This document shows, one piece after another, positions 1,920 through 32,030 of a stretch of 35,307 bases of DNA. Every line of letters begins with the position of its first letter. Position 1 is the stretch's first letter. The notes below the pieces were generated by a model, which had not been told where the DNA came from, searched no databases, and saw only the letters and a list, made by a program, of their open reading frames with translations. The translations under genes were made by a program, and so were the position numbers. Where the stretch lies: the NCBI GenBank assembly GCA_017960565.1, contig JAGCYY010000032.1, forward strand, positions 1 to 35,307. The letters run 5' to 3'. Source of the DNA: a bacterium. GTDB taxonomy: Bacteria; Bacillota_I; Bacilli_A; Izemoplasmatales; UBA1188.

Positions 1920-3257
1920 TTAAATTAATGAAATTATCAAGAATAAGAAGAATAGTACAACGATAGCTCCAATGACAGATAAACTTATGATTGTGCCTTT
2001 TCTACACGCCTTGAAATTTCGGTAATATTTAATATGTTTAAATACTATCCAACCAACGATACCGAGGATTGGAAGAATGAATGAACCAACTGCATACCAA
2101 TTGCTTCCTGTATCTCCTACTGGAATATCGAGGATTGATTCACCTTGTGGAAGAACTTCTTCTTCATGCGTTTTTTGGATATTTGGTCTTTCTTCACCAG
2201 GTTCTAAAATTGTGATTGATTTTAAAGGGACACCTGATTCTCTAATTTTCTTGTATTCAGCGATTTCAGCTTCATTGCCGAATACTAGATGCCCATGACC
2301 AATATCGTGCATCTTAGGCATATCTCCAGTGTAACCTTTTTCATTATACTCATGAATTTTAGGGTTATATGTAAATAAGATTTTGTTTTTCTCAAGAAGT
2401 GGATCAGGAATTGGAATCGCTGATATTAATGATCTAGTGTATGGATGAAGTGGATAATCAAATAATTCAACTGCATCTGCAACTTCTACTATATCACCTT
2501 TATAGATAACACCGATTCTATCCGAAATAAATCTAACGATAGAAAGATCGTGTGCTATGAATAGATAGGTGATTCCTTTTTCTTCTTGGAACTTCTTAAG
2601 AAGATTTAATACTTGAGCACGAATTGATACATCAAGTGCTGAAATAGGTTCATCAGCTACTATAAATTCAGGTTCCATGACAATAGCACGAGCAAGACCG
2701 ATACGTTGACGTTGTCCACCTGAGAATTCATGAGGATAACGAGTTAAGTGTTCAGGAAGAAGACCAACTTCTTTGATGATGTTTTCTACTTTTTGAACAC
2801 GATCAGCTTCATTTTCAAATAGATGGAAATTATATAAACCTTCAGATACTATATAGTCTACTGTCGCTCTTTCATTTAATGATGCAGCAGGGTCTTGGAA
2901 AACCATTTGAATGTTTCTTATTACTTCTCTATCTAATGTGCTTGGGATTTTACCAGAAATTCTTACACCCTTATAACAAATTTCACCATTGGCACAAGGA
3001 TTGACTCTGATGATTGCCCTACCAATTGTGGTTTTGCCGGAACCTGATTCGCCAACGAGAGAGAATGTTTCACCTTTATAAATATCAAATGAAGCATTTT
3101 TTACAGCCTTAACGGCGTTTTCGCCTTTTCCAAATGTGATATCAACATTTTTTAGTGATACTAGTATTTCTTTACCATTTTCCGCTATTGGACCATGTTC
3201 TGGAAAGTGTGAAGCTGTGCTTTGAGGAGTGATTTTTTCTATATTTTCTTGTTTCAT
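1920..3257 (-). CDS. oppF: Oligopeptide ABC importer ATPase OppF with C-terminal membrane helices
   Basis: This is one of the two ATPases that power the Opp peptide importer on the cytoplasmic face. Walker A GESGSGKT is at residues 69-76, Q-loop [10 protein letters not shown] near 120-129, signature FSGGQRQR at 178-185, Walker B and catalytic Glu in IVADEP at 199-204, and the switch His in IAHDLS near 233-238. A family-typical C-terminal region (about 255-300) follows. Beyond it the protein is unusual: about 80 further hydrophilic residues, then two hydrophobic helices (about 390-408 and 423-443) that would anchor the ATPase in the membrane. Usual OppF proteins are about 310-330 residues and soluble. 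It starts 13 bp after oppD with a GGAGGAATGA ribosome binding site and ends the opp operon. Confidence 0.93.
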
Positions 3258-3269
3258 ATATCATTCCTC

Positions 3270-5018
3270 CTAAATATTGAAAGCCTTGATAAGCTTTTCA
3301 TGAATATTTTGAATAGCTTCAGGTTTTTCAATTTTTGGTGCACGTGGATCTAATAACCAAGTTTTTGCATAATGTGTATCAGATACTTTAAACATTGGCG
3401 AATCTAACATTGTATCAATCTTTAAACAATATGGATTTCTTGGAGCGAATGGGTCACCTACAATCTTATTATAAAGAGATGGAGGTGTACCAGATATTGA
3501 ATATAGTTTTGTATTCTTTTGTGCTAATTGTGGGAGCGATGAAAGAAGTGCCCAAGTATATGGATGTCTTGGATCATAGAATACTTCTTCTACAGTTCCT
3601 AGTTCAACTAGTTGTCCAGCATATAGAACAGCTACTCTATCTGCGATATTCGCAACGACACCAAGGTCGTGAGTAATAAATACTATTGTATAATTAAATT
3701 CTTTTTGTAAATCTTTAATTAATTTTAAAATTTGAGCTTGAATTGTAACATCAAGTGCAGTAGTTGGTTCATCGCAGATAAGAATCTTAGGTTGACATGA
3801 CAAGGCAATCGCAATAACGATTCTTTGTCTCATACCACCAGAGTATTGGAATGGATAGTCATCATAACGATTTTCTGCGTTAGGAATACCTACTTTTTTC
3901 ATGAGTTCAACAGCTCTTACTCTAGCTTCACCTTCAGATACTTTTTGGTGTTTCATGATGATTGATGTGATCTGTTTTCCAATTGTAATGATTGGGTTCA
4001 GTGATGTCATAGGATCTTGGAAAATAGTCGCAACTTTTCTACCACGAATGAGTTGCCAGTCTTTAGTGTATTTTACTTTAGCTAGATCAGCGAAACATGT
4101 ACCATGGATCTTTTCTTCATCTTCGCCGATATATTTAACTCTAAATACTACTGTATCAAATATTTTGTTTAAAGTGTCTTCATTAGTTAGGTTTACACCA
4201 AATCTCATAGCTTTCTTGATGGTTCTTTTGAGTTTGTTTATAAGACCTACTCTACTTAAAAGACCATATCTTCCGACAGAAAGATATATTTCTTTTGCGA
4301 TGATGAGATTACGTTTATTCATATCTTCTGTGATATCTTTTAGAATCTCAAGGTCGTATCTTGATTTTAACTCGTTCATCTGACGAGTATATCTCTCGTT
4401 ATATTCAGTGTTGTTAGCGAGATCTTCTTTGTATTTTTTTAGAAGATTCTTTCTTTCTTCTTCTAAAACTGCGATTTGTTTTGTAAGATTATTGATCTTA
4501 TTTTGTTCAGCAATTATAAGATCTTTTTCTTTAGATGGATCAAAAGTTTGTTTTAAGTTGAAAGATTCAGTTCTTTCATAGATGAGATCAGCGATTTTGT
4601 TGTCAAATTCTTCTTTTTCTTCATTAGAAAGAGACATCATTCTTCTTCTTTCAGCCCTAAGATCAAGCATCTTTATATAGGTGTCTGAACCAAATTCAAG
4701 AGAAGAATATTTATTGAGCGATTTATGGATACTCTTTACAAAATATTCTTCAATTTTGCCTTTGCTGACATCTGTTTTTTGTAAATCTGGTTCATTGAAT
4801 AGAATTGAACCATTGCTTATGAAACCATTCTGGTCAAGCATTCCAGCGAAAGTCTTGGTGAATACTGATTTACCGGAACCTGATTCACCAACAATAGCGA
4901 TTGATTCATTTTCATATACATCAAGACTGATGCCACGAATAGCTGTAAGAATACGTCCACGAACTTTGAACTTTACTTCGAGGTCCTTGATTGAAAGTAA
5001 TACATTTTTATCTTCCAT
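3270..5018 (-). CDS. oppD: Oligopeptide ABC importer ATPase OppD with a large internal insertion
   Basis: This is the second ATPase of the Opp importer. Walker A GESGSGKS is at residues 44-51, but the Q-loop [10 protein letters not shown] only appears at 333-342, whereas in ordinary OppD it follows about 50 residues after Walker A. The extra 235 or so residues (about 85-320) are highly charged and include a Lys/Glu-rich stretch (about 160-225) that looks like a coiled coil. The rest is canonical: YSGGMRQR at 392-399, Walker B ILICDEP at 412-418, H-loop ITHDLG further on, and a C-terminal Cys-containing segment typical of OppD (RNPYC). The gene sits 9 bp after oppC, and its start follows a GAGGTGAAAT ribosome binding site. 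Sequence identity to known inserts cannot be tested here. Confidence 0.93.
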
Positions 5019-5027
5019 ATTTCACCT

Positions 5028-6017
5028 CTACATATGAGTTCTTGGGTCGCTTGCGTCACCTAAATTTTGACCAACGACATAAAGAACGACTGTGATGATT
5101 GATGCAATAACGACAGGGCTCCAGAATTCAAATTCCCAGCCAACTGTAGACATCGCAACTTGGTTTTCATATATCAATCTACCAAGAGATCTATCAGTTA
5201 AACCAATACCGATATATGATAAGAACACTTCATTTGAAATATAAGATGGAATTTCAGTCGCAAGTAATGTGACAATAACTGAAGTCATAAAAGGTAGAAT
5301 ATTTCTCATTGTCAGACGGAATATTGGTGTTCCAAGACAACGAGATGCAAGATTATATTCTCGATCACGAATAATAATTACCTGGGTTCTAATAAAGTAG
5401 GCTATACCTAGCCACCCAGTGACAGTTAAGGCAAATACCATAGTCCAGAAATTCGCCGATAATATCAACACAAGAACGGAAATTAAGAGAATATATGGAA
5501 CGTTACCGACAATATTATATACTTCTGTCATAATGAGGTCCATCTTCTTTGAAAATCCCCATATAGCACCGATTACTACACCGATAGTCATATTGATTGC
5601 GGCACAGATAAGTGCTAGAGAAATTGAAATACTAGATCCATACCAGATTTCATCGAATGTTGATTGTCCTGAGTTACCAGTACCAAGAATGTAGTGAATT
5701 GAAAAACCAAATTTTTGGATGGCAGGCCCAGGTTTTAAGTGTTTAGAACCATCTATTAGTAGATTCTTGAATGGATCTACTTTTGGATCATATCCAATAA
5801 TTAATGGATAGATATATGCGAATATAATAATTAAAGCGAGTAATATTAGAATAATAATATTGATTTTGTTTTTAAAGAAAACTCTAAAAACTGATTTCCA
5901 ATATGAATATCTAGGGGCTGTAATCTTTTCAGAATCGGAATTAGAATTATCATATTTAGTGAATAGTTCACTTTCAGATAAGTTTAAAGATGAAAGATCA
6001 TATAATTCATTATCCAT
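5028..6017 (-). CDS. oppC: Oligopeptide ABC importer permease OppC
   Basis: This is an inner-membrane permease subunit that pairs with OppB to form the peptide channel. An N-terminal cytoplasmic tail of about 45 residues is followed by a membrane helix (about 51-75), an extracytoplasmic loop, and five more hydrophobic segments. The binding-protein-dependent transport motif (EAA loop) that docks on the ATPases lies around residues 224-245 (ASRCLGTPIFRLTMRNILP). The C-terminal GQNLGDASDPR is the usual OppC/DppC ending. The length (329 aa) is normal for the family. It starts 3 bp after oppB and precedes oppD. Confidence 0.94.
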   Translation of the reverse strand: MDNELYDLSSLNLSESELFTKYDNSNSDSEKITAPRYSYWKSVFRVFFKNKINIIILILLALIIIFAYIYPLIIGYDPKVDPFKNLLIDGSKHLKPGPAIQKFGFSIHYILGTGNSGQSTFDEIWYGSSISISLALICAAINMTIGVVIGAIWGFSKKMDLIMTEVYNIVGNVPYILLISVLVLILSANFWTMVFALTVTGWLGIAYFIRTQVIIIRDREYNLASRCLGTPIFRLTMRNILPFMTSVIVTLLATEIPSYISNEVFLSYIGIGLTDRSLGRLIYENQVAMSTVGWEFEFWSPVVIASIITVVLYVVGQNLGDASDPRTHM

Positions 6018-6020
6018 AAA

Positions 6021-7601
6021 CTAAGCCCTTCCTTTCGATGAGAATGAAATTCTAGGGTCAACCATACTCATTAGTAAGTCACCTAAAATGATAGAAATTA
6101 CTGATAATGTTGAATAGAAGAGTGTTATACCAACTATTACACCATTATCATAATAGTTAATCGCTTTTGTAAGAACATTACCAACACCAGGAACTACATA
6201 TACACGTTCAGTTACGATAGCACCTGTTAAAGAGAATAAGATACTTCCAGGAATACCATGCACAATAGGTATTGCAGCATTCTTTAAGATATGTTTTCTA
6301 AATATTTCGCCTTCAGAAAGACCGCCTGATCTTGCAAATTTAACATAGTCAGAATTCATTTGGTCAATCATGTATCTTCTTAACCACTTCATAAGTCCAG
6401 CGATTGATGGAAGGGCAAGAGATACAATTGGAAGGATATACATTGCGATATTTGTCTTTTCAGTATCAAAGGTCGTTGGTAAATTAAATAATTTATTACC
6501 AAGAGCTCTAAACATAAAGATATAAGCTAGAGATGGAACCGCAATTATAAAGATAATATATACTGTACCAATCTTATCGAAGATACCATCTTTATTTCTA
6601 GCCATAATTACACCTAGAGGAATACCCAAGAAATACGCAACAAGAACGGAAATAATACCTATTACGAATGAATATCCCATCCTTGATTTACCACTTAAGT
6701 TTTTATCGACAACTGTATAATCATCAGTGAATCTCAATTCATAAATAGGAAGTGATGTTCTAGAACCATATTGATATCTTGCCGAATGAAGATTATCAGA
6801 TGATTCAGCAATTTCACCTGTTGGATAAACTAATTCTGTTTTTACTAAGGCACCTTGTGTTTGTGTCATTGTTTTCCAAACATCAACATTTTGGTTTACT
6901 GAATATGATAAACCAAGTTTTATTGTGAATAAGTTTTGATGAATGTAAGGGAATTTATTGTCAGTATATAATAAATATTTATAAGTAGTACCATTGCCCA
7001 TTATAGTTGGAGAAAATTTATCTCCATATAAAGGATCATGTAAAGAGAAAGTGATTCTTCTTTCTTCATCAGCTATACCTTGAGCATTGTGGATATTATC
7101 AACCCAAATTAGACCACTAAAAAACTTCCATAATCTTGTAGTTAATGGAATATCTTTAATTGCGAATAATCTTTGTCTACCACCTGATGCAACTTTTACA
7201 GGGGTTAACATTTTAGCATCTAATCTTCTAACAGTATAGCCTTTTGATTTATAATAGTCGGTAAATTTTTTAACATATAATTGAACAATTTCATCATCTT
7301 CTTCTGGTTTTTTTCCGAAGTTTAAAGCACTTCTTCTTTGTTCATCTGTTTCAAATTCACCGTTTTTGGCGATTTCATTTATATAGTCAGAATATGTGAC
7401 ATAATCTAAATATCCATAATCTTCCCATCTTTCATATCTATATACTTCTTTATCGTTGTTCGCATATTTTGTATAATTTGCATCTTGGGCAAATATGAGT
7501 GTTCTATCCATTAATGAATAGATAAGAATCATTACAATCGAAACAACTAGAATTATTGAAAATAATCCGTGGAGTAGACGTCTTAATAAATATTTGGTCA
7601 T
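6021..7601 (-). CDS. oppB: Oligopeptide ABC importer permease OppB with a large extracytoplasmic loop
   Basis: This is the partner permease of OppC. It has an N-terminal membrane helix (about residues 11-31), a hydrophilic segment (about 36-305), and then the usual bundle of five helices from residue 311 on. The EAA loop around residues 422-445 contains ARSGGLSEGEIFRKHILKNA, and the protein ends with the family's MVDPRI motif. Ordinary OppB proteins are about 305-340 residues; this one has 526 because the loop between helices 1 and 2 carries roughly 150-200 extra residues. That loop faces the outside, where it could contact OppA. The gene is 124 bp downstream of oppA, with a stem-loop in the gap. 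Confidence 0.93.
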   Translation of the reverse strand: MTKYLLRRLLHGLFSIILVVSIVMILIYSLMDRTLIFAQDANYTKYANNDKEVYRYERWEDYGYLDYVTYSDYINEIAKNGEFETDEQRRSALNFGKKPEEDDEIVQLYVKKFTDYYKSKGYTVRRLDAKMLTPVKVASGGRQRLFAIKDIPLTTRLWKFFSGLIWVDNIHNAQGIADEERRITFSLHDPLYGDKFSPTIMGNGTTYKYLLYTDNKFPYIHQNLFTIKLGLSYSVNQNVDVWKTMTQTQGALVKTELVYPTGEIAESSDNLHSARYQYGSRTSLPIYELRFTDDYTVVDKNLSGKSRMGYSFVIGIISVLVAYFLGIPLGVIMARNKDGIFDKIGTVYIIFIIAVPSLAYIFMFRALGNKLFNLPTTFDTEKTNIAMYILPIVSLALPSIAGLMKWLRRYMIDQMNSDYVKFARSGGLSEGEIFRKHILKNAAIPIVHGIPGSILFSLTGAIVTERVYVVPGVGNVLTKAINYYDNGVIVGITLFYSTLSVISIILGDLLMSMVDPRISFSSKGRA

Positions 7602-7630
7602 ATATTTACTCCTTTAAAACTATAAATCAA

Positions 7631-7666
7631 ACTAGGAGATGGTAATTTTCACTACCATCCCCTAGT
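7631..7666 (-). terminator. Intra-operon stem-loop between oppA and oppB
   Basis: The arms ACTAGGAGATGGTA (7631-7644) and TACCATCCCCTAGT (7653-7666) form a 14-bp stem on the minus-strand transcript (13 Watson-Crick pairs and one G-U) with an 8-nt loop. It is followed only by TTTGATTT, a weak U tract. It probably acts as a partial terminator or a 3'-end stabiliser that keeps oppA mRNA in excess over the permease and ATPase genes, as is common for binding-protein genes. Confidence 0.75.
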
Positions 7667-7725
7667 ATCATATGTTATGTTAAATTTTTACTAAATATTA
7701 ACTAAAAGTTTTTGTTTTTTGTATC

Positions 7726-9987
7726 CTAGAAGATACCTACACATTTAACCATGTAACCTGCGAAGTCTGGTAAGAATGTGTCAAGATAAGTTTGTGGATC
7801 ACCATAGTCAGGTCCCCAACCAGATACATCATAAATATCATAGTTAGCTTGATAACCGAAATCTGTGTAATAACCAGCGTAGTACCAAGCAGAGCTTGTT
7901 GAGCAAGTTACTAAGTTGATTACAACGTTACCACCAAGAACATTCTTAACTGATTGAGCGAATGCATTAGCTCTATTTAAGTATGTTGTTGAACCAGAGA
8001 AGCAAGGGAGGTCAATGTAGATTGGAGTAGTGATGTTCTTAGCACCTTTAGCAGTTACTGTAACTTCACCAGAATCTTTATCTGTCTTGAATGTTAAAGT
8101 TCCAGCTGCTACTAATGCATCAACAGCTTTGTTGTATGCAGCTACAGCAGCTTCTTCATTAAACCAACCATCGAAACCAGATGAAGCACCGATACCACCA
8201 TCAGCATCTTGATCCCATACTTTGAATGCATATCCATCAGCAGTGATTACATCTTGCATAATCTTGCCATAGAAAGTGCCAGCTGGATAAGTTTTTTCTT
8301 CACCACCAACAGTGATTGTAGTTTCATTTGGTAGAGATACGAATGTACCAGGAGTATAAGAGTTGATGAGTGAAGTTAATGCTAATTCTTCACCAACAGC
8401 TTGAGCGTTGTAAGCTTCTCTATCTAATGCGTAGCATAATGCAAGTCTGAAATCTTGTAAGCCCATTGCAGCTTTAGATACAGCTTTTTCAGAATCATTC
8501 TTATCTGAAGAAGCTTTAGAAGGGTCGTTAACGTTAGCGTATTGAGAACGGTTGATGTTGAAGAATCCCATGAATGAAGTTGCATCAGTACCACTTGTGT
8601 AATGATATGTTTCGAACCAAGATTTATCAGTTCCTTCAACTAAGTCTGCTTTAGATTGTGCTAAAGATGTTGCACTTAAACCAGCGCCTGCATAGTGACC
8701 TTCTTTCATTCCGTTGTAAGCTTTTAATGGATCTGTACCATCGTTGAATTCCCAAACGATTTCAGTGATGTTGATGTTGTCTTTGTTCCAATATTTAGGG
8801 TTAGCTTCGAAAGTGATCTTTGTTTCAGCTGTATTTTGTTTTACAAGATATGGTCCACAGTAAGCGATGTTAGCAGGAGTTTTACCATATGTGTAATCTT
8901 CAGCTTTAGCATCGAATTCAGCACCGAATTTACCACCTTGAGATGTATAATAAGCTCTACTTAATGGAGCAAATACACCATAACCGAACATAGTATCGAA
9001 GAATGAGCATGGTTCAACAAGTGTATATTCTAATGTAGTATCATTAATAGCCTTAACACCTACTTGAGCGAAATCAGTAACGTCGCCTTCGATATATTCT
9101 GTAGCATTAACGATAATGCCTTGGATTAGATATTCTAAACCACCAGCAACGTCACACATATGTTGCATACCAGCTACGAAGTCATCAGCTTTAACGTCAG
9201 CAACTTTGTTACCATCTTGGTCAACCCATTCAAGACCGCTCTTTAATGTGATAGTTACAGTTTTACCATCTTGAGATACAACTGGAAGATCAGCAGCTAG
9301 AGCTGGTTTTAATTGGTTTTCAACATCGTATTCATAAAGACCATCATAAGTATTAACGATAGCTTCAGAGTCAGCTGCTCTAGAAGTAGCGAGAACGTCC
9401 CAAGTTTGAGGGTCAGAAGAATAACCAAGTGTATAAGTGTCGTTTAGAGTGAATCCATTATCAGCTAACCAAGCTTTAGCTCTTTCTTCATAAGCGCCAG
9501 TGCCTTTAACTTCAGCGTAGATAGCTTTGAGTTCATTTCTTTGAGCTTCTGTTAATGGTTGTTCATTAACGATTAAAGCTTGATGATATCTATAGCTATC
9601 ATTTCCCCATAATGCTGGAGTGATAGAATATGGAACAACTCTTGAAATTGCATAGTTACCACCATTAGATGATAATGGTAATAAAGTACCAGATTCAATT
9701 AATTTTGCTTCTGCAACAGCCATTAATGCGAATCTCTTACCAAGATCAACGTTTTCAGCTTTAGCGAGTGCATAAGCTGCCTTGAAATCTGCATAAACTT
9801 CATTGTAAATAGCAGTTGATTCAGCAACGTAAGCTTCAAGATCAAAGTCATCTGTATCGCCAGATCCTGATGCAGTTGTAGTTACATCATCTCCACTTTT
9901 TGCAGTTGTAGTTTCATCGCCGCCTTTACAAGCAACAAGTCCAACCACGAGGAGAAGAGCAACTAATAATGATAATAATTTTTTCAT
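7726..9987 (-). CDS. oppA: Oligopeptide-binding lipoprotein OppA, apparently circularly permuted
   Basis: This is an extracytoplasmic solute-binding lipoprotein that captures peptides for OppBCDF. It has a signal peptide with lipobox VGLVAC (lipidated Cys20) and a Thr/Ser/Gly/Asp-rich linker (about 21-48). The classical start of the SBP_bac_5 fold (YTLGYSSDPQTWD, then DGLYEYD and KPALAADLPV) only begins near residue 185. The protein stops just after GDPQTYLDTF (about residue 738), where relatives continue for about 100 more residues. The missing piece appears to be at the N-terminus: residues 50-140 contain DLGKRFALMAVAEAKLIESG and TLLPL, which match the usual C-terminal region. The 753-residue length is large. 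The ribosome binding site is AAAGGAGAGA and a good promoter lies upstream. Confidence 0.9.
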   Translation of the reverse strand: MKKLLSLLVALLLVVGLVACKGGDETTTAKSGDDVTTTASGSGDTDDFDLEAYVAESTAIYNEVYADFKAAYALAKAENVDLGKRFALMAVAEAKLIESGTLLPLSSNGGNYAISRVVPYSITPALWGNDSYRYHQALIVNEQPLTEAQRNELKAIYAEVKGTGAYEERAKAWLADNGFTLNDTYTLGYSSDPQTWDVLATSRAADSEAIVNTYDGLYEYDVENQLKPALAADLPVVSQDGKTVTITLKSGLEWVDQDGNKVADVKADDFVAGMQHMCDVAGGLEYLIQGIIVNATEYIEGDVTDFAQVGVKAINDTTLEYTLVEPCSFFDTMFGYGVFAPLSRAYYTSQGGKFGAEFDAKAEDYTYGKTPANIAYCGPYLVKQNTAETKITFEANPKYWNKDNINITEIVWEFNDGTDPLKAYNGMKEGHYAGAGLSATSLAQSKADLVEGTDKSWFETYHYTSGTDATSFMGFFNINRSQYANVNDPSKASSDKNDSEKAVSKAAMGLQDFRLALCYALDREAYNAQAVGEELALTSLINSYTPGTFVSLPNETTITVGGEEKTYPAGTFYGKIMQDVITADGYAFKVWDQDADGGIGASSGFDGWFNEEAAVAAYNKAVDALVAAGTLTFKTDKDSGEVTVTAKGAKNITTPIYIDLPCFSGSTTYLNRANAFAQSVKNVLGGNVVINLVTCSTSSAWYYAGYYTDFGYQANYDIYDVSGWGPDYGDPQTYLDTFLPDFAGYMVKCVGIF

Positions 9988-10164: not shown

Positions 10165-11475
10165 CTAACTTATATAATATGTATAGTTTTTGAAAATTCC
10201 TTTTCTTGGGCATCTTTGTAACACGTGTTTCTGTTTTGTTACAGGATGAATAAATTCTAGCTTATATGCATCAAGTCCAAGCTTATAATCAGTTCTTTCA
10301 ATCATGCTTTTATATTTGATGTCGTTGAAGATTGGATGGCCTATATTCGATAACTGAAATCTTATTTGATGGAACCTACCTGTCTCTATATATACTTTTA
10401 AAAGAGATAAGTCTTGTTTCTCATCATAATTTAATACTTTATATTTCAAAATAGCGATTTTTCCATCTTCACTACTATAAGCAATCTTCTTTCCTTCGTC
10501 TTTAGAAATATAGTCAACCAAAGTATCTTCTTCTTTTTGAAGCTTTCCATAGACGACTGCAAGATAAGTCTTTATTGGTCTCATTTCGTTTAATCTTTTA
10601 GATGCTTTTGAAGTTTTAGAAAAAATCATAAGTCCTGACACATTCCTATCGAGTCTTTGGATTAATCCTAGATACACGTTACCTGGTTTATTATATTTAA
10701 TCTTAAGATATTTTTTTGTAAGCGATAGAATATCAGCGTCTTTTGATTCATCTTCTTGTGATAATATTCCTGCTTCTTTTTCGACTACTATCACTTGACT
10801 ATCTTCGTAATATACATTAATAGATAATTCATTTTCAATAATTTTATATAGTTCCTCTTGATTTTTGAAAGGAATGAAATGATCAGCACTAGGAATAATA
10901 TAGAGAGCGGAATTTGTGAATGATTCAGCAATCAATTCTAAATGGTCTTTTCTTATTAAATCATTTTCACCACCGATTATTATCGCTCTTGCGCTAACTT
11001 TTCTTAAATCATCTTTATCGATGTTAGGTTCTTCTAAGCATAATTTTGAATAGATAGATTTTGTTTCAAGATAATCTTGTTTAAGATATTCAATGCATTT
11101 AGAAGTCAAACCTTCAGGCGACAAATTTGGACCAATCAAAAATAATTTATCGATGTTATCACATTCTAGCGACATCAAGATTCCAACAATTGCACCATCT
11201 GAAAAACCGATTATAGAATATCTATCGATGTTTTCATCTTTGACAAATAGTTCAATATCATTTTTGATAGTGTCATATGTGAGAATTGAAAATGATGATT
11301 TTCCATGACATCTTGAATCTATAAAATATAAAGAATAATCTTGTAATTTATCAAAGAAGAAAGCAAATGTGTCTAAATTTTCACCATTGCCATGTAGAAA
11401 AAGGAGGGGATAACCCTCCATATTTCCAAAATGTTCATAGTTTAAACTAATACCATTTTCTAAGACTTTGATCAT
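10165..11475 (-). CDS. Alpha/beta hydrolase fused to RluA-type pseudouridine synthase
   Basis: One uninterrupted frame of 436 residues encodes two domains. Residues 1-217 form an alpha/beta hydrolase: oxyanion-type LHGNGEN at 27-33, nucleophile elbow GFSDG with Ser92, and likely acid and base Asp172 (GGENDLI) and His199 (SADHF). Residues 218-436 form an RluA-family RNA pseudouridine synthase: the YYEDSQVIVVEK start, catalytic Asp276 in QRLDRNVSG (the usual His before RLD is Gln273), and GRFHQIRFQLSNIGHPI near the end. There is no S4 RNA-binding domain; the hydrolase takes its place. The synthase half would isomerise uridine in rRNA or tRNA, while the hydrolase substrate is unknown. The gene starts 2 bp after the CvpA-like gene and is probably co-transcribed with it. 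Confidence 0.88.
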   Translation of the reverse strand: MIKVLENGISLNYEHFGNMEGYPLLFLHGNGENLDTFAFFFDKLQDYSLYFIDSRCHGKSSFSILTYDTIKNDIELFVKDENIDRYSIIGFSDGAIVGILMSLECDNIDKLFLIGPNLSPEGLTSKCIEYLKQDYLETKSIYSKLCLEEPNIDKDDLRKVSARAIIIGGENDLIRKDHLELIAESFTNSALYIIPSADHFIPFKNQEELYKIIENELSINVYYEDSQVIVVEKEAGILSQEDESKDADILSLTKKYLKIKYNKPGNVYLGLIQRLDRNVSGLMIFSKTSKASKRLNEMRPIKTYLAVVYGKLQKEEDTLVDYISKDEGKKIAYSSEDGKIAILKYKVLNYDEKQDLSLLKVYIETGRFHQIRFQLSNIGHPIFNDIKYKSMIERTDYKLGLDAYKLEFIHPVTKQKHVLQRCPRKGIFKNYTYYIS

Positions 11476-11477
11476 TA

Positions 11478-12668
11478 TTAAGCTTCTTGGAATAACTTCA
11501 TTATTCTATTGTAGTCTTCTTGACTTAAATCACCAGATGTAACCTTGTCTTGAAGACTATCAGAAATTTGATCGACATAATCACTACCAACATCTTTTAA
11601 TAATCCTGGATTTGCTTCAGCGACTGCAAGAACAAGTTCTGAATCAACTGCAGCATCTGTGAATTTTTCGATATTTTCTTGAGTTAATTCACCATCATCT
11701 CTAACTACGACTGCTAGATCTTTAACAGCGATGAAGATTTCTGCTTCATTGCTTAAATCAACATCAGTTAGATCGATATTAGCTTCAGGAATGATGTCAT
11801 CAATGACACCTGAGATCATTTCTTTAACTGTTTCTGAATCTTCAAGATTTGAGAAGATTTCTCTGATTTCATCATCGTCAAGTTGAGCGAATGTTTCAAA
11901 GACATCTTGACTACTATCACTGCTTCCGCTTTGCATTACAGAGGCAAGTTTCATTAGTGATGGAATACTCTTGATATCATCATAAAGATATCTTTCTTCA
12001 TCACTACCTTCTTTTGTATATTTTAAAGGTTTGATTTTAACCTTTTCTAATACTTTGCTTGAGTAATCTAAGAAGAATGATGTTTTAGATTGTTCCTCGA
12101 TGAGGGCAAAAGTTTGATTGCTATTGTCTTCACTTGTATCGAGTGCAGTAGCGTTCCTTAATACTGGTGTTAATACAATTAATGGGAAGAACACTACAAT
12201 GACAGTTATAACACCTTTTAATAAACCAAAGATACCAACTGTCTTAAACGCGGTGCGTTTAGGTCTTCTTGCGAAGAATATTAATGTTAGTAAGTTACCA
12301 ACTAGTGGAATTACGATAATAGATCCGAGAGCAAGCACCCAGAAACATGCCATCTTAAGAATACCACCAACGAGTGCATTCACTGAATCAGCAGGAATAT
12401 TAAGCCCTGAAGATTGAATCGTCTCAGAGATAAATCTTTCTATAAATATAGCTAGTGTTTCTCCGTCAGCCTGTCCAATATCAAATGGAATGATTGAAGC
12501 AGGTGTACTAGATACTAAACCTACAAATTGATCTACTAAAAAATAAGCTAGGAAAAAGGCAATCAACATGAATAGAAATGAAAAAATCTTTCTTGGGGCC
12601 TTTCCCATAAATCCAAAAATGAAACTTATAGCGATTATTGCGATAAATGCAATATCAAAATAACTCAT
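11478..12668 (-). CDS. CvpA-family membrane protein (396 aa)
   Basis: The N-terminal 175 residues contain four hydrophobic segments (about 2-20, 28-48, 105-133, 148-172) in the pattern of CvpA (colicin V production) proteins: FDIAFIAIIAISFIFGFMGK at the start, and the 'F..G..KG' turn seen here as VGIFGLLKGV. The remaining 220 residues are acidic and hydrophilic and predicted to be outside or peripheral; they hold several Asp/Glu-rich helical stretches (for example QLDDDEIREIFSNLED). Bacterial CvpA proteins are usually about 160-200 residues, so the long acidic tail is an extension. Function is uncertain; relatives are linked to envelope maintenance. The ribosome binding site is a strong AGAGGAGG 9-10 nt before the ATG. 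Confidence 0.7.
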   Translation of the reverse strand: MSYFDIAFIAIIAISFIFGFMGKAPRKIFSFLFMLIAFFLAYFLVDQFVGLVSSTPASIIPFDIGQADGETLAIFIERFISETIQSSGLNIPADSVNALVGGILKMACFWVLALGSIIVIPLVGNLLTLIFFARRPKRTAFKTVGIFGLLKGVITVIVVFFPLIVLTPVLRNATALDTSEDNSNQTFALIEEQSKTSFFLDYSSKVLEKVKIKPLKYTKEGSDEERYLYDDIKSIPSLMKLASVMQSGSSDSSQDVFETFAQLDDDEIREIFSNLEDSETVKEMISGVIDDIIPEANIDLTDVDLSNEAEIFIAVKDLAVVVRDDGELTQENIEKFTDAAVDSELVLAVAEANPGLLKDVGSDYVDQISDSLQDKVTSGDLSQEDYNRIMKLFQEA

Positions 12669-30906: not shown

Positions 30907-31740
30907 CTATTCTTGAGGGCTGTTTTCTACAGCTTGAGCCATCAAGTTCTCTCTTTCTTGACTAGTGATTTTAGCTAAAGCTTGGTTAATTTTTGTTTCT
31001 AAATTGTTATCAACTTTTCTAACACCAATTGATACAATAACATCGGTTGGATCAACCTCAAATGCATCAGTAAGCTTAATCCACTTTAGTTCTGGGTTAT
31101 TTGTGCAAACACCAAGAGCAACTGGTTTTTCAACAACAGTAACGTCAGTATCACCAAGTAAGATACCAGATACGATTAGTGGAACTGTAGCAAGAGGAGT
31201 CATTGCAGTTGTACCAGCAGCTTCTGCGAGTTGATCTGCAAGATCAGCAAATACAGTACCTTTTTGTCCTACGATATTAGCACCTCTAAAATCAGTAAAG
31301 CGAGAAGCATTTGCGAATGGTCCATCAGCTTTAACAATTACAACGTGTTCACTTGCATAATATGGTTCAGTGAAATCAATTGATTCTTTTCTTTCTTCTG
31401 TTGGACTCATACCAGCGATGATTGCGTCGATATCACCTGATTCAAGAGCTGGGATTAAACCTTCCCATGCAATCTTTTTAACAACTAGTGTATATCCGAG
31501 GTCAGCCGCGATTTTTCTTGCCATTTGGATATCATATCCTTCTGCATAAAGACCACTTTGACCATAGATTGGAACGTTTGTGTTAGTGGCAGTTGTTTCA
31601 GTCCAGTTAAATGGAGCATAGTCACATTCAAGACCGATTACAATTTCACCCTTGCTTTCGTCGAATTTAGCGCCTCCACATGCAACTAAACTAACAACTA
31701 GTGCGAATACTAAAATTAAACTTAATAATGCTTTCTTCAT
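30907..31740 (-). CDS. Amino-acid-binding lipoprotein of an ABC importer, probably for lysine
   Basis: Extracytoplasmic solute-binding protein (SBP_bac_3 family) of 277 residues. The signal peptide has lipobox VSLVAC with lipidated Cys21. Ligand-pocket features include IVIGLECDYAPFNWTE, EGYDIQMARKIAADLG, WEGLIPALESGDIDAIIAGMS and TEERKESIDFTEPYY. I set the start at ATG 31740 because it has AAAAGGAGA 9 nt upstream and begins a normal signal peptide. An in-frame ATG at 31935 lies inside the lysine riboswitch and is not a real start. The lysine riboswitch upstream makes lysine the likeliest ligand; related basic amino acids cannot be excluded. Confidence 0.94.
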   Translation of the reverse strand: MKKALLSLILVFALVVSLVACGGAKFDESKGEIVIGLECDYAPFNWTETTATNTNVPIYGQSGLYAEGYDIQMARKIAADLGYTLVVKKIAWEGLIPALESGDIDAIIAGMSPTEERKESIDFTEPYYASEHVVIVKADGPFANASRFTDFRGANIVGQKGTVFADLADQLAEAAGTTAMTPLATVPLIVSGILLGDTDVTVVEKPVALGVCTNNPELKWIKLTDAFEVDPTDVIVSIGVRKVDNNLETKINQALAKITSQERENLMAQAVENSPQE

Positions 31741-31773
31741 AATTTTCTTTTTCTCCTTTTTTTGCTTATTAAC

Positions 31774-31804
31774 AAAAAATAAAAGCGCCTTACGAAGACG
31801 CTTT
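31774..31804 (-). terminator. Lysine-riboswitch intrinsic terminator
   Basis: On the minus-strand RNA AAAGCGUCUU pairs with AAGGCGCUUU around a 3-nt loop (31782-31804) and is followed by UAUUUUUU. The 5' arm (AGCGUCUU) can instead pair with GAGGCGCU just after the aptamer (31834-31841), giving a credible antiterminator. Lysine binding should favour the terminator and switch the importer off. Confidence 0.85.
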
Positions 31805-31839
31805 AACTCAAAGTAAATAATTAAGATGAATAATAGCGC

Positions 31840-31990
31840 CTCTACTACTGTAGGAGTGTTATAGATATTCTCATATAACCCCACGGAAACATTATGCCTA
31901 ATATTAACCGTTCGGCGATGATTGCCTTTCCTCATAAGATCATAGAATGCCTTCTTCCTTAGAGTACTAATCTACATCGCTACCTCTATT
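31840..31990 (-). ncRNA. Lysine riboswitch (L box)
   Basis: On the minus strand the segment starts with TAGAGGTAGCGATGTAG and AGTACTCTAAGGAAGAAGG, which correspond to the conserved AGAGGU...G.. and AAGAGUA regions of the L box. The core GAAAGGCAATCATCGCCGAA matches the family's GAAAGG...GUCGCCGAA, and a long stem GGGGTTATATGAGAATATC leads into the closing strand CTCCTACAGTAG. With a terminator/antiterminator switch and an amino-acid importer downstream, the call is strong although the sequence is divergent in the outer stem. Confidence 0.88.
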
Positions 31991-32030
31991 TTTTATTAAG
32001 TTTTGTCAGTTTTTCTGACTTATGTATCAT

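Follow-up and report, generated by a model that had tools for sequence, protein, structure and literature searches.

The nearest precedent for an RluA-family pseudouridine synthase that shares one chain with a second enzyme is TrcP of Vibrio cholerae, in which the C-terminal RluA-family domain follows a cytidine deaminase and a tRNA-binding domain that is long and helical (PMC9553926). A second point of reference is valacyclovirase, for which a catalytic triad of S122-D227-H255 is reported, along with a residue, D123, that neutralises the alpha-amino group of the substrate (PMC4198189). Here we describe a gene that joins a hydrolase related to the latter to a synthase of the RluA type, located in a 35,307-nucleotide stretch of DNA (the window) from a draft bacterial genome of 1.32 Mb that is 92.6% complete. 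No paper on a hydrolase-RluA fusion was found in the open-licence literature, and we regard its novelty in print as provisional.

The fusion gene and its surroundings

The gene has exactly the coordinates proposed for it in an earlier note on this DNA, and is transcribed from the minus strand. The features of interest are as follows.

10165..11475, minus strand: fusion gene, alpha/beta hydrolase plus RluA-type pseudouridine synthase, 436 aa (open reading frame, Pfam)
10828..11475, minus strand: residues 1-216, valacyclovirase-like alpha/beta hydrolase domain (Pfam Abhydrolase_1, alignments, profile match to 2ocg)
10165..10827, minus strand: residues 217-436 and stop codon, S4-less RluA-type pseudouridine synthase domain (Pfam PseudoU_synth_2, fold match)
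11197..11202, minus strand: codons of the nucleophile Ser92 and of Asp93, which corresponds to Asp123 of valacyclovirase (alignments; both invariant in 13/13 rows)
10960..10962, minus strand: codon of Asp172, the catalytic acid (invariant in 13/13 aligned rows)
10879..10881, minus strand: codon of His199, the catalytic base (invariant in 13/13 aligned rows)
10648..10659, minus strand: codons of QRLD, residues 273-276, with Gln273 for the usual His and the catalytic Asp276 (alignments)
11478..12668, minus strand: upstream neighbour, 396 aa, with an N-terminal CvpA-like membrane domain (Pfam Colicin_V, E 5.2e-7)

Both domains score above the curated cut-offs of their Pfam models, with Abhydrolase_1 (PF00561) matching residues 22-139 (E 3.4e-11; 43.7 bits against a cut-off of 25.8) and PseudoU_synth_2 (PF00849) matching residues 227-376 (E 2.3e-26; 93.3 bits against 26.8). 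The synthase half also scores 126.3 bits with NCBIfam TIGR00005, which is below the cut-off of 192.7 for that model, probably because its 298 positions start before the catalytic domain and the S4-less group has no part that matches there.

The CvpA-like neighbour ends 2 bases before the fusion gene and is therefore probably cotranscribed with it. Homologs of up to 570 aa adjoin the fusion in six of the seven genomes of the genus, the exception being G006, and the C-terminal part of the protein has no solved relative (best PDB match E 0.09). Elsewhere in the window there is an Opp transporter of the Mollicutes type (1920-9987, minus strand), whose 526 aa OppB has a long N-terminal part before its permease domain (305-521) and is best matched by MMSYN1 models, and an Mbeg1-like protein (PF11187; 21847-22908, minus strand). 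A lysine riboswitch (31826-31996, minus strand; Rfam RF00168, 77.2 bits) lies upstream of genes for a family 3 solute-binding protein and an ABC transporter. The longest open reading frame there (30907-31935) runs at its 5' end into the riboswitch, so its true start is probably further in.

The fusion is present in all seven genomes of the genus examined, although one copy (G005) runs off its contig after residue 269, and the other five full-length copies are 44-70% identical to the window's protein. The reading frame is open across the join at residue 217 in all seven assemblies, as the earlier note had read from the single sequence, and none of the seven genes has, at the join, a start codon preceded by an obvious ribosome-binding site. 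We did not find the fusion in the other 83 of the 90 genomes of the order, nor among the matches listed from samples of the class (395 genomes) and the phylum (392 genomes), searches that give the best matches only and in which rare fusions elsewhere may be missed. Synthase matches at E 6.4e-72 or better were listed for 139 of the 395 class genomes, and among these the frame is at least 400 aa in only five, all of this genus, 320 aa in one, and 273 aa or less in the other 133. With the hydrolase half, 36 genomes of the phylum sample gave matches at 1e-25 or better, and long frames were seen only in G000 and G006, again of this genus. Two sets of candidates for further fusions were rejected: a second copy in G002 (C1:215615) is an ordinary synthase of 289 aa, and synthase frames of 353-427 aa in G017, G020, G022, G023, G046 and G048 have ordinary N-termini or are over-extended, with none matching the hydrolase.

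An assembly or sequencing artefact, in which a stop codon between two genes was missed, could be entertained in view of the mostly draft state of the genomes, but seven separate assemblies have the same open frame and diverged sequences have the same join, and we give this explanation almost no credence. Neither of the two findings that the earlier note named as fatal to the fusion, a missed stop codon or absence from close relatives, was thus encountered. Both halves are also maintained by selection. A comparison of G001 with G004, the closest pair of genomes, by the Nei-Gojobori method gives a dN of 0.018 against a dS of 0.162 in the hydrolase half, and a dN of 0.010 against a dS of 0.107 in the synthase half. 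The ratio is about 0.1 in each, and we conclude that the two are under purifying selection of similar strength; more distant pairs were left out, dS being mostly greater than 1.

Relatives of the two halves and how they were joined

The synthase half has close relatives that stand alone. In the sister family of the same order (f3), 26 of 27 genomes (all except G048) match the synthase half by itself at E 2.6e-45 or better, and the 23 loci inspected contain separate synthase genes encoding 227-242 aa; the two of these proteins scanned with Pfam have no S4 domain. A search outside the phylum gave four relatives, all consisting of the synthase only. The six fused synthase halves group in a 32-row tree as a single clade (support 91/98) beside stand-alone Bacilli rows, with Bacteroidota rows outside both and support of 98/93 for the group as a whole, which includes synthases of Arenibacter and Croceitalea. 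Escherichia coli RluA, TruC, RluC and RluD fall outside this S4-less group, although the branches are long and the outer tree is unsure. Transfer of a known RNA site from the E. coli enzymes was considered and set aside, given that they form a separate clade in this tree, with the same reservation.

Since the synthases are S4-less and stand-alone both in f3 and widely in the class, this state is ancestral. Residues 217-436 are orthologous to these S4-less proteins of Bacilli and Bacteroidota (about 230 aa, PF00849; 43-53% identity in f3), and the proposition of the earlier note that the hydrolase had replaced an S4 domain does not hold, there having been no S4 domain to replace. The f3 proteins differ from the fused ones in standing alone, in reading HRLD in 23/23 rows, and in having four extra loop residues before a conserved Tyr.

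The hydrolase half likewise belongs to a family with unfused members. A profile of the fused hydrolases identified stand-alone members with frames of 217-259 aa in 29 of the 395 genomes of the class sample; these match at E 1.9e-31 or better, below which there is a gap in score and then generic hydrolases at about 1e-21. These short proteins from other Bacilli families match the fused half over its full length (E 1e-31 to 1e-56) and share its 18 invariant residues in the aligned rows; they differ in being unfused and in having assorted neighbours. In a tree they separate from the fused hydrolases as a group with support of 97/94. The loci collected (L073-L079 and L086) represent a family whose members are short alpha/beta hydrolases, share a conserved Ser-Asp-Gly elbow and are distributed over several Bacilli families; the one member scanned has no NCBIfam model above cut-off. 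Viral contigs searched with the hydrolase half gave one weak partial match (L087). Genes beside the stand-alone hydrolases encode an acyltransferase, ribosomal protein L25, an acetyltransferase, a response regulator and a polynucleotide-phosphorylase-like protein, and no common functional theme is apparent in the loci examined.

In alignment, the C-terminus of the stand-alone hydrolases falls at the join of the fused ones, such that a full-length hydrolase is followed by a full-length synthase with no linker between them. In G001 and G004 a Met coincides precisely with the first residue of the unfused synthase of L016 (EMSLDIYYED versus MSLDIVFED), and this Met may be the fossil start codon of a once separate synthase gene. 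These patterns are consistent with formation of the fusion a single time, in the ancestor of the genus, by two whole and unrelated genes becoming joined end to end. The earlier note had offered a fusion of neighbouring genes as one possibility, but the parts are not adjacent in any relative examined: there is no hydrolase-matching open reading frame in the 23 f3 synthase loci or in L006-L009, no synthase was found beside the hydrolase in the seven stand-alone hydrolase loci read, and in the five of 29 genomes that have both parts as separate genes (G115, G215, G256, G265 and G303) they are on different contigs each time.

The joining could have been neutral, with two unrelated housekeeping activities coming to share a promoter and a chain and nothing being gained. 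Both the confinement of the fusion to one genus in the samples searched and the scattered, non-adjacent disposition of the two parts elsewhere would fit such an accident. However, it has been kept in 7/7 genomes, some of which are only 44-45% identical over the protein, and changes in synthase motifs accompany it, and we consider a neutral origin rather unlikely.

Catalytic motifs and the probable chemistry of each half

In the synthase half the RLD motif with Asp276, Tyr304 and TGRxHQIR (here TGRFHQIR) are invariant in the six full-length fusions aligned and can be aligned with E. coli RluA, TruC, RluC and RluD. The predicted model of this half has pLDDT values mostly of 75-95, and the fold that matches it best is that of E. 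coli RluA in complex with RNA (2i82), with a TM score of 0.80 when normalised by target length and 25% identity. The residue preceding RLD is never His in the fused rows (Gln in four, including the window's protein, where the earlier note had read it correctly, and Ser in two), yet this His is kept in all 23 f3 rows and in the four E. coli enzymes. It is also missing from two of the four paralogs in the window's own genome and so is not essential for the fold. The six fused rows are also four residues shorter before the conserved Tyr than the 23 f3 rows and those of E. coli. In RluA the RLD motif is positioned at the RNA, and RNA recognition may therefore differ in the fused enzymes; loss of the His and of the four-residue loop suggests that the fusion and RNA recognition are linked.

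These losses (6/6 fused rows, 0/23 in f3), which look as if RNA contacts had been rearranged, raise the question of whether the chief role of the hydrolase half is structural, or is to position RNA for the synthase, with its own chemistry in second place. A join without a linker favours a rigid pair, and divergence is faster in the hydrolase half (35% identity to G001) than in the synthase half (55%), both of which agree with this reading. We nonetheless consider it unlikely, as all of the hydrolase triad and motif residues are kept in the seven fused copies, which would be needless for a mere scaffold.

The hydrolase half contains the expected motifs in order, these being the HGx oxyanion motif (HGN, 28-30), the GxSxG nucleophile elbow (GFSDG, 90-94), the acid and the His. 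Ser92, Asp172 and His199 are invariant in the seven fused hydrolase halves and in all 13 rows of a mixed alignment (five fused and eight stand-alone), in which 18 positions are invariant altogether, including H28-G29-N30, G90, S92, D93, G94, D172 and H199. With Asp276 of the synthase also kept in 6/6 full-length fusions, the catalytic residues listed in the earlier note are borne out for both halves, and its overall description, a real and continuous fusion of two complete and apparently active enzyme domains, agrees with the alignments. The structural model is of less help here, with pLDDT below 50 for residues 1-216; aligned relatives entered the prediction for the synthase half only.

A profile of the hydrolase matches many esterases and related enzymes, among them valacyclovirase (2ocg) across positions 3-218, nearly the whole domain, at E 7.1e-22; eight chains score higher, the top one being a PHB depolymerase (8ynv, 1.3e-31). 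In a stand-alone member SDGGI and GAN align with the same motifs of 2ocg, and in chains 2ocl and 2ock the Ser and Asp places are taken by A and N. Ser92-Asp93 of the fusion is the same pair as the valacyclovirase nucleophile and D123, and because Asp93 is thus placed beside the nucleophile an alpha-amino ester or thioester is the likeliest class of substrate. By analogy, the hydrolase half probably cleaves a small alpha-amino ester. Substrate transfer from valacyclovirase across such a distance would be weak. An SDG motif is by itself not enough to settle the substrate, and alignment is poor in the lid region, on which specificity depends.

From this architecture we infer, with about even confidence, a bifunctional enzyme specific to the genus that is at once an independent pseudouridine synthase and an alpha-amino (thio)ester hydrolase. 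The fusion itself, its conservation, the purifying selection and the kinship of each half are observed, whereas the two activities, the class of substrate and the independence of the halves are deduced. The synthase half would isomerise a uridine in a structured RNA, with Asp276 attacking the flipped-out base, and Ser92, His199 and Asp172 of the hydrolase half would cleave an ester or thioester. Asp93 appears placed to bind the alpha-amino group, and an amino-acid ester or homocysteine thiolactone would be the likeliest substrates. The two activities would most probably be independent, with the hydrolase also providing N-terminal bulk beside the RNA site, although the lost His and lost loop in the fused copies speak against full independence of the halves.

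A more intimate coupling would have the RluA domain dock on a charged tRNA while the hydrolase removes the 3' aminoacyl or peptidyl ester, in proofreading or rescue, much as TrcP combines two reactions on tRNA in a single chain. Asp93 adjoins the nucleophile, as would suit an alpha-amino ester (PMC4198189); RluA-type enzymes can be directed to tRNA; TrcP, which tethers its tRNA, is a precedent for a second enzyme domain ahead of an RluA-family domain (PMC9553926); and the motif changes that accompany the fusion face the RNA. Against this, 24 of the 29 class genomes with a stand-alone hydrolase have no strong match to this synthase, the neighbours of the stand-alone hydrolases have no tRNA theme in the loci examined, and E. 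coli RluA, TruC, RluC and RluD lie outside the synthase clade, such that a tRNA site of the TruC or RluA kind is not transferable. We judge this coupling to be decidedly unlikely. The more specific notion of a two-headed enzyme, whose RluA half binds or marks a tRNA and whose hydrolase strips a wrong amino acid or peptide from that same molecule, seems to us very unlikely; if true, RNA modification and aminoacyl-ester quality control would be linked in one chain.

Comparison with described enzymes

The bifunctional enzyme that we favour is a new architecture made from two known enzyme families and not, as far as shown, a new mechanism. With the changes beside RLD, the fusion provides a test case for whether a pseudouridine synthase can be retargeted by acquiring a further enzyme domain, and the stand-alone hydrolases with their valacyclovirase-like Ser-Asp elbow are obvious candidates for a screen of substrates.

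Human valacyclovir hydrolase (BPHL, 2ocg) shares with the hydrolase half the Ser-Asp-Gly-Gly elbow, the GAN that follows it and the profile match over 3-218, but it has no RNA enzyme attached and is longer, with 254 residues in the solved chain. E. coli RluA (2i82) has the fold that best matches the modelled synthase half and, at 219 aa, is likewise without an S4 domain; it differs in belonging to a separate clade, in having no hydrolase and in reading HRLD rather than QRLD. TrcP resembles the fusion in that a second enzyme is N-terminal to an RluA-family domain in one chain (PMC9553926). Its cytidine deaminase and long helical domain are not found in the fusion, where residues 1-216 match only alpha/beta hydrolase models in Pfam and NCBIfam. 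The TrcP partner acts in sequence with the RluA-family domain on one base (PMC9553926), whereas the partner here is a serine hydrolase without a helical domain. The fusion adds a further domain partner to the short list of RluA fusions.
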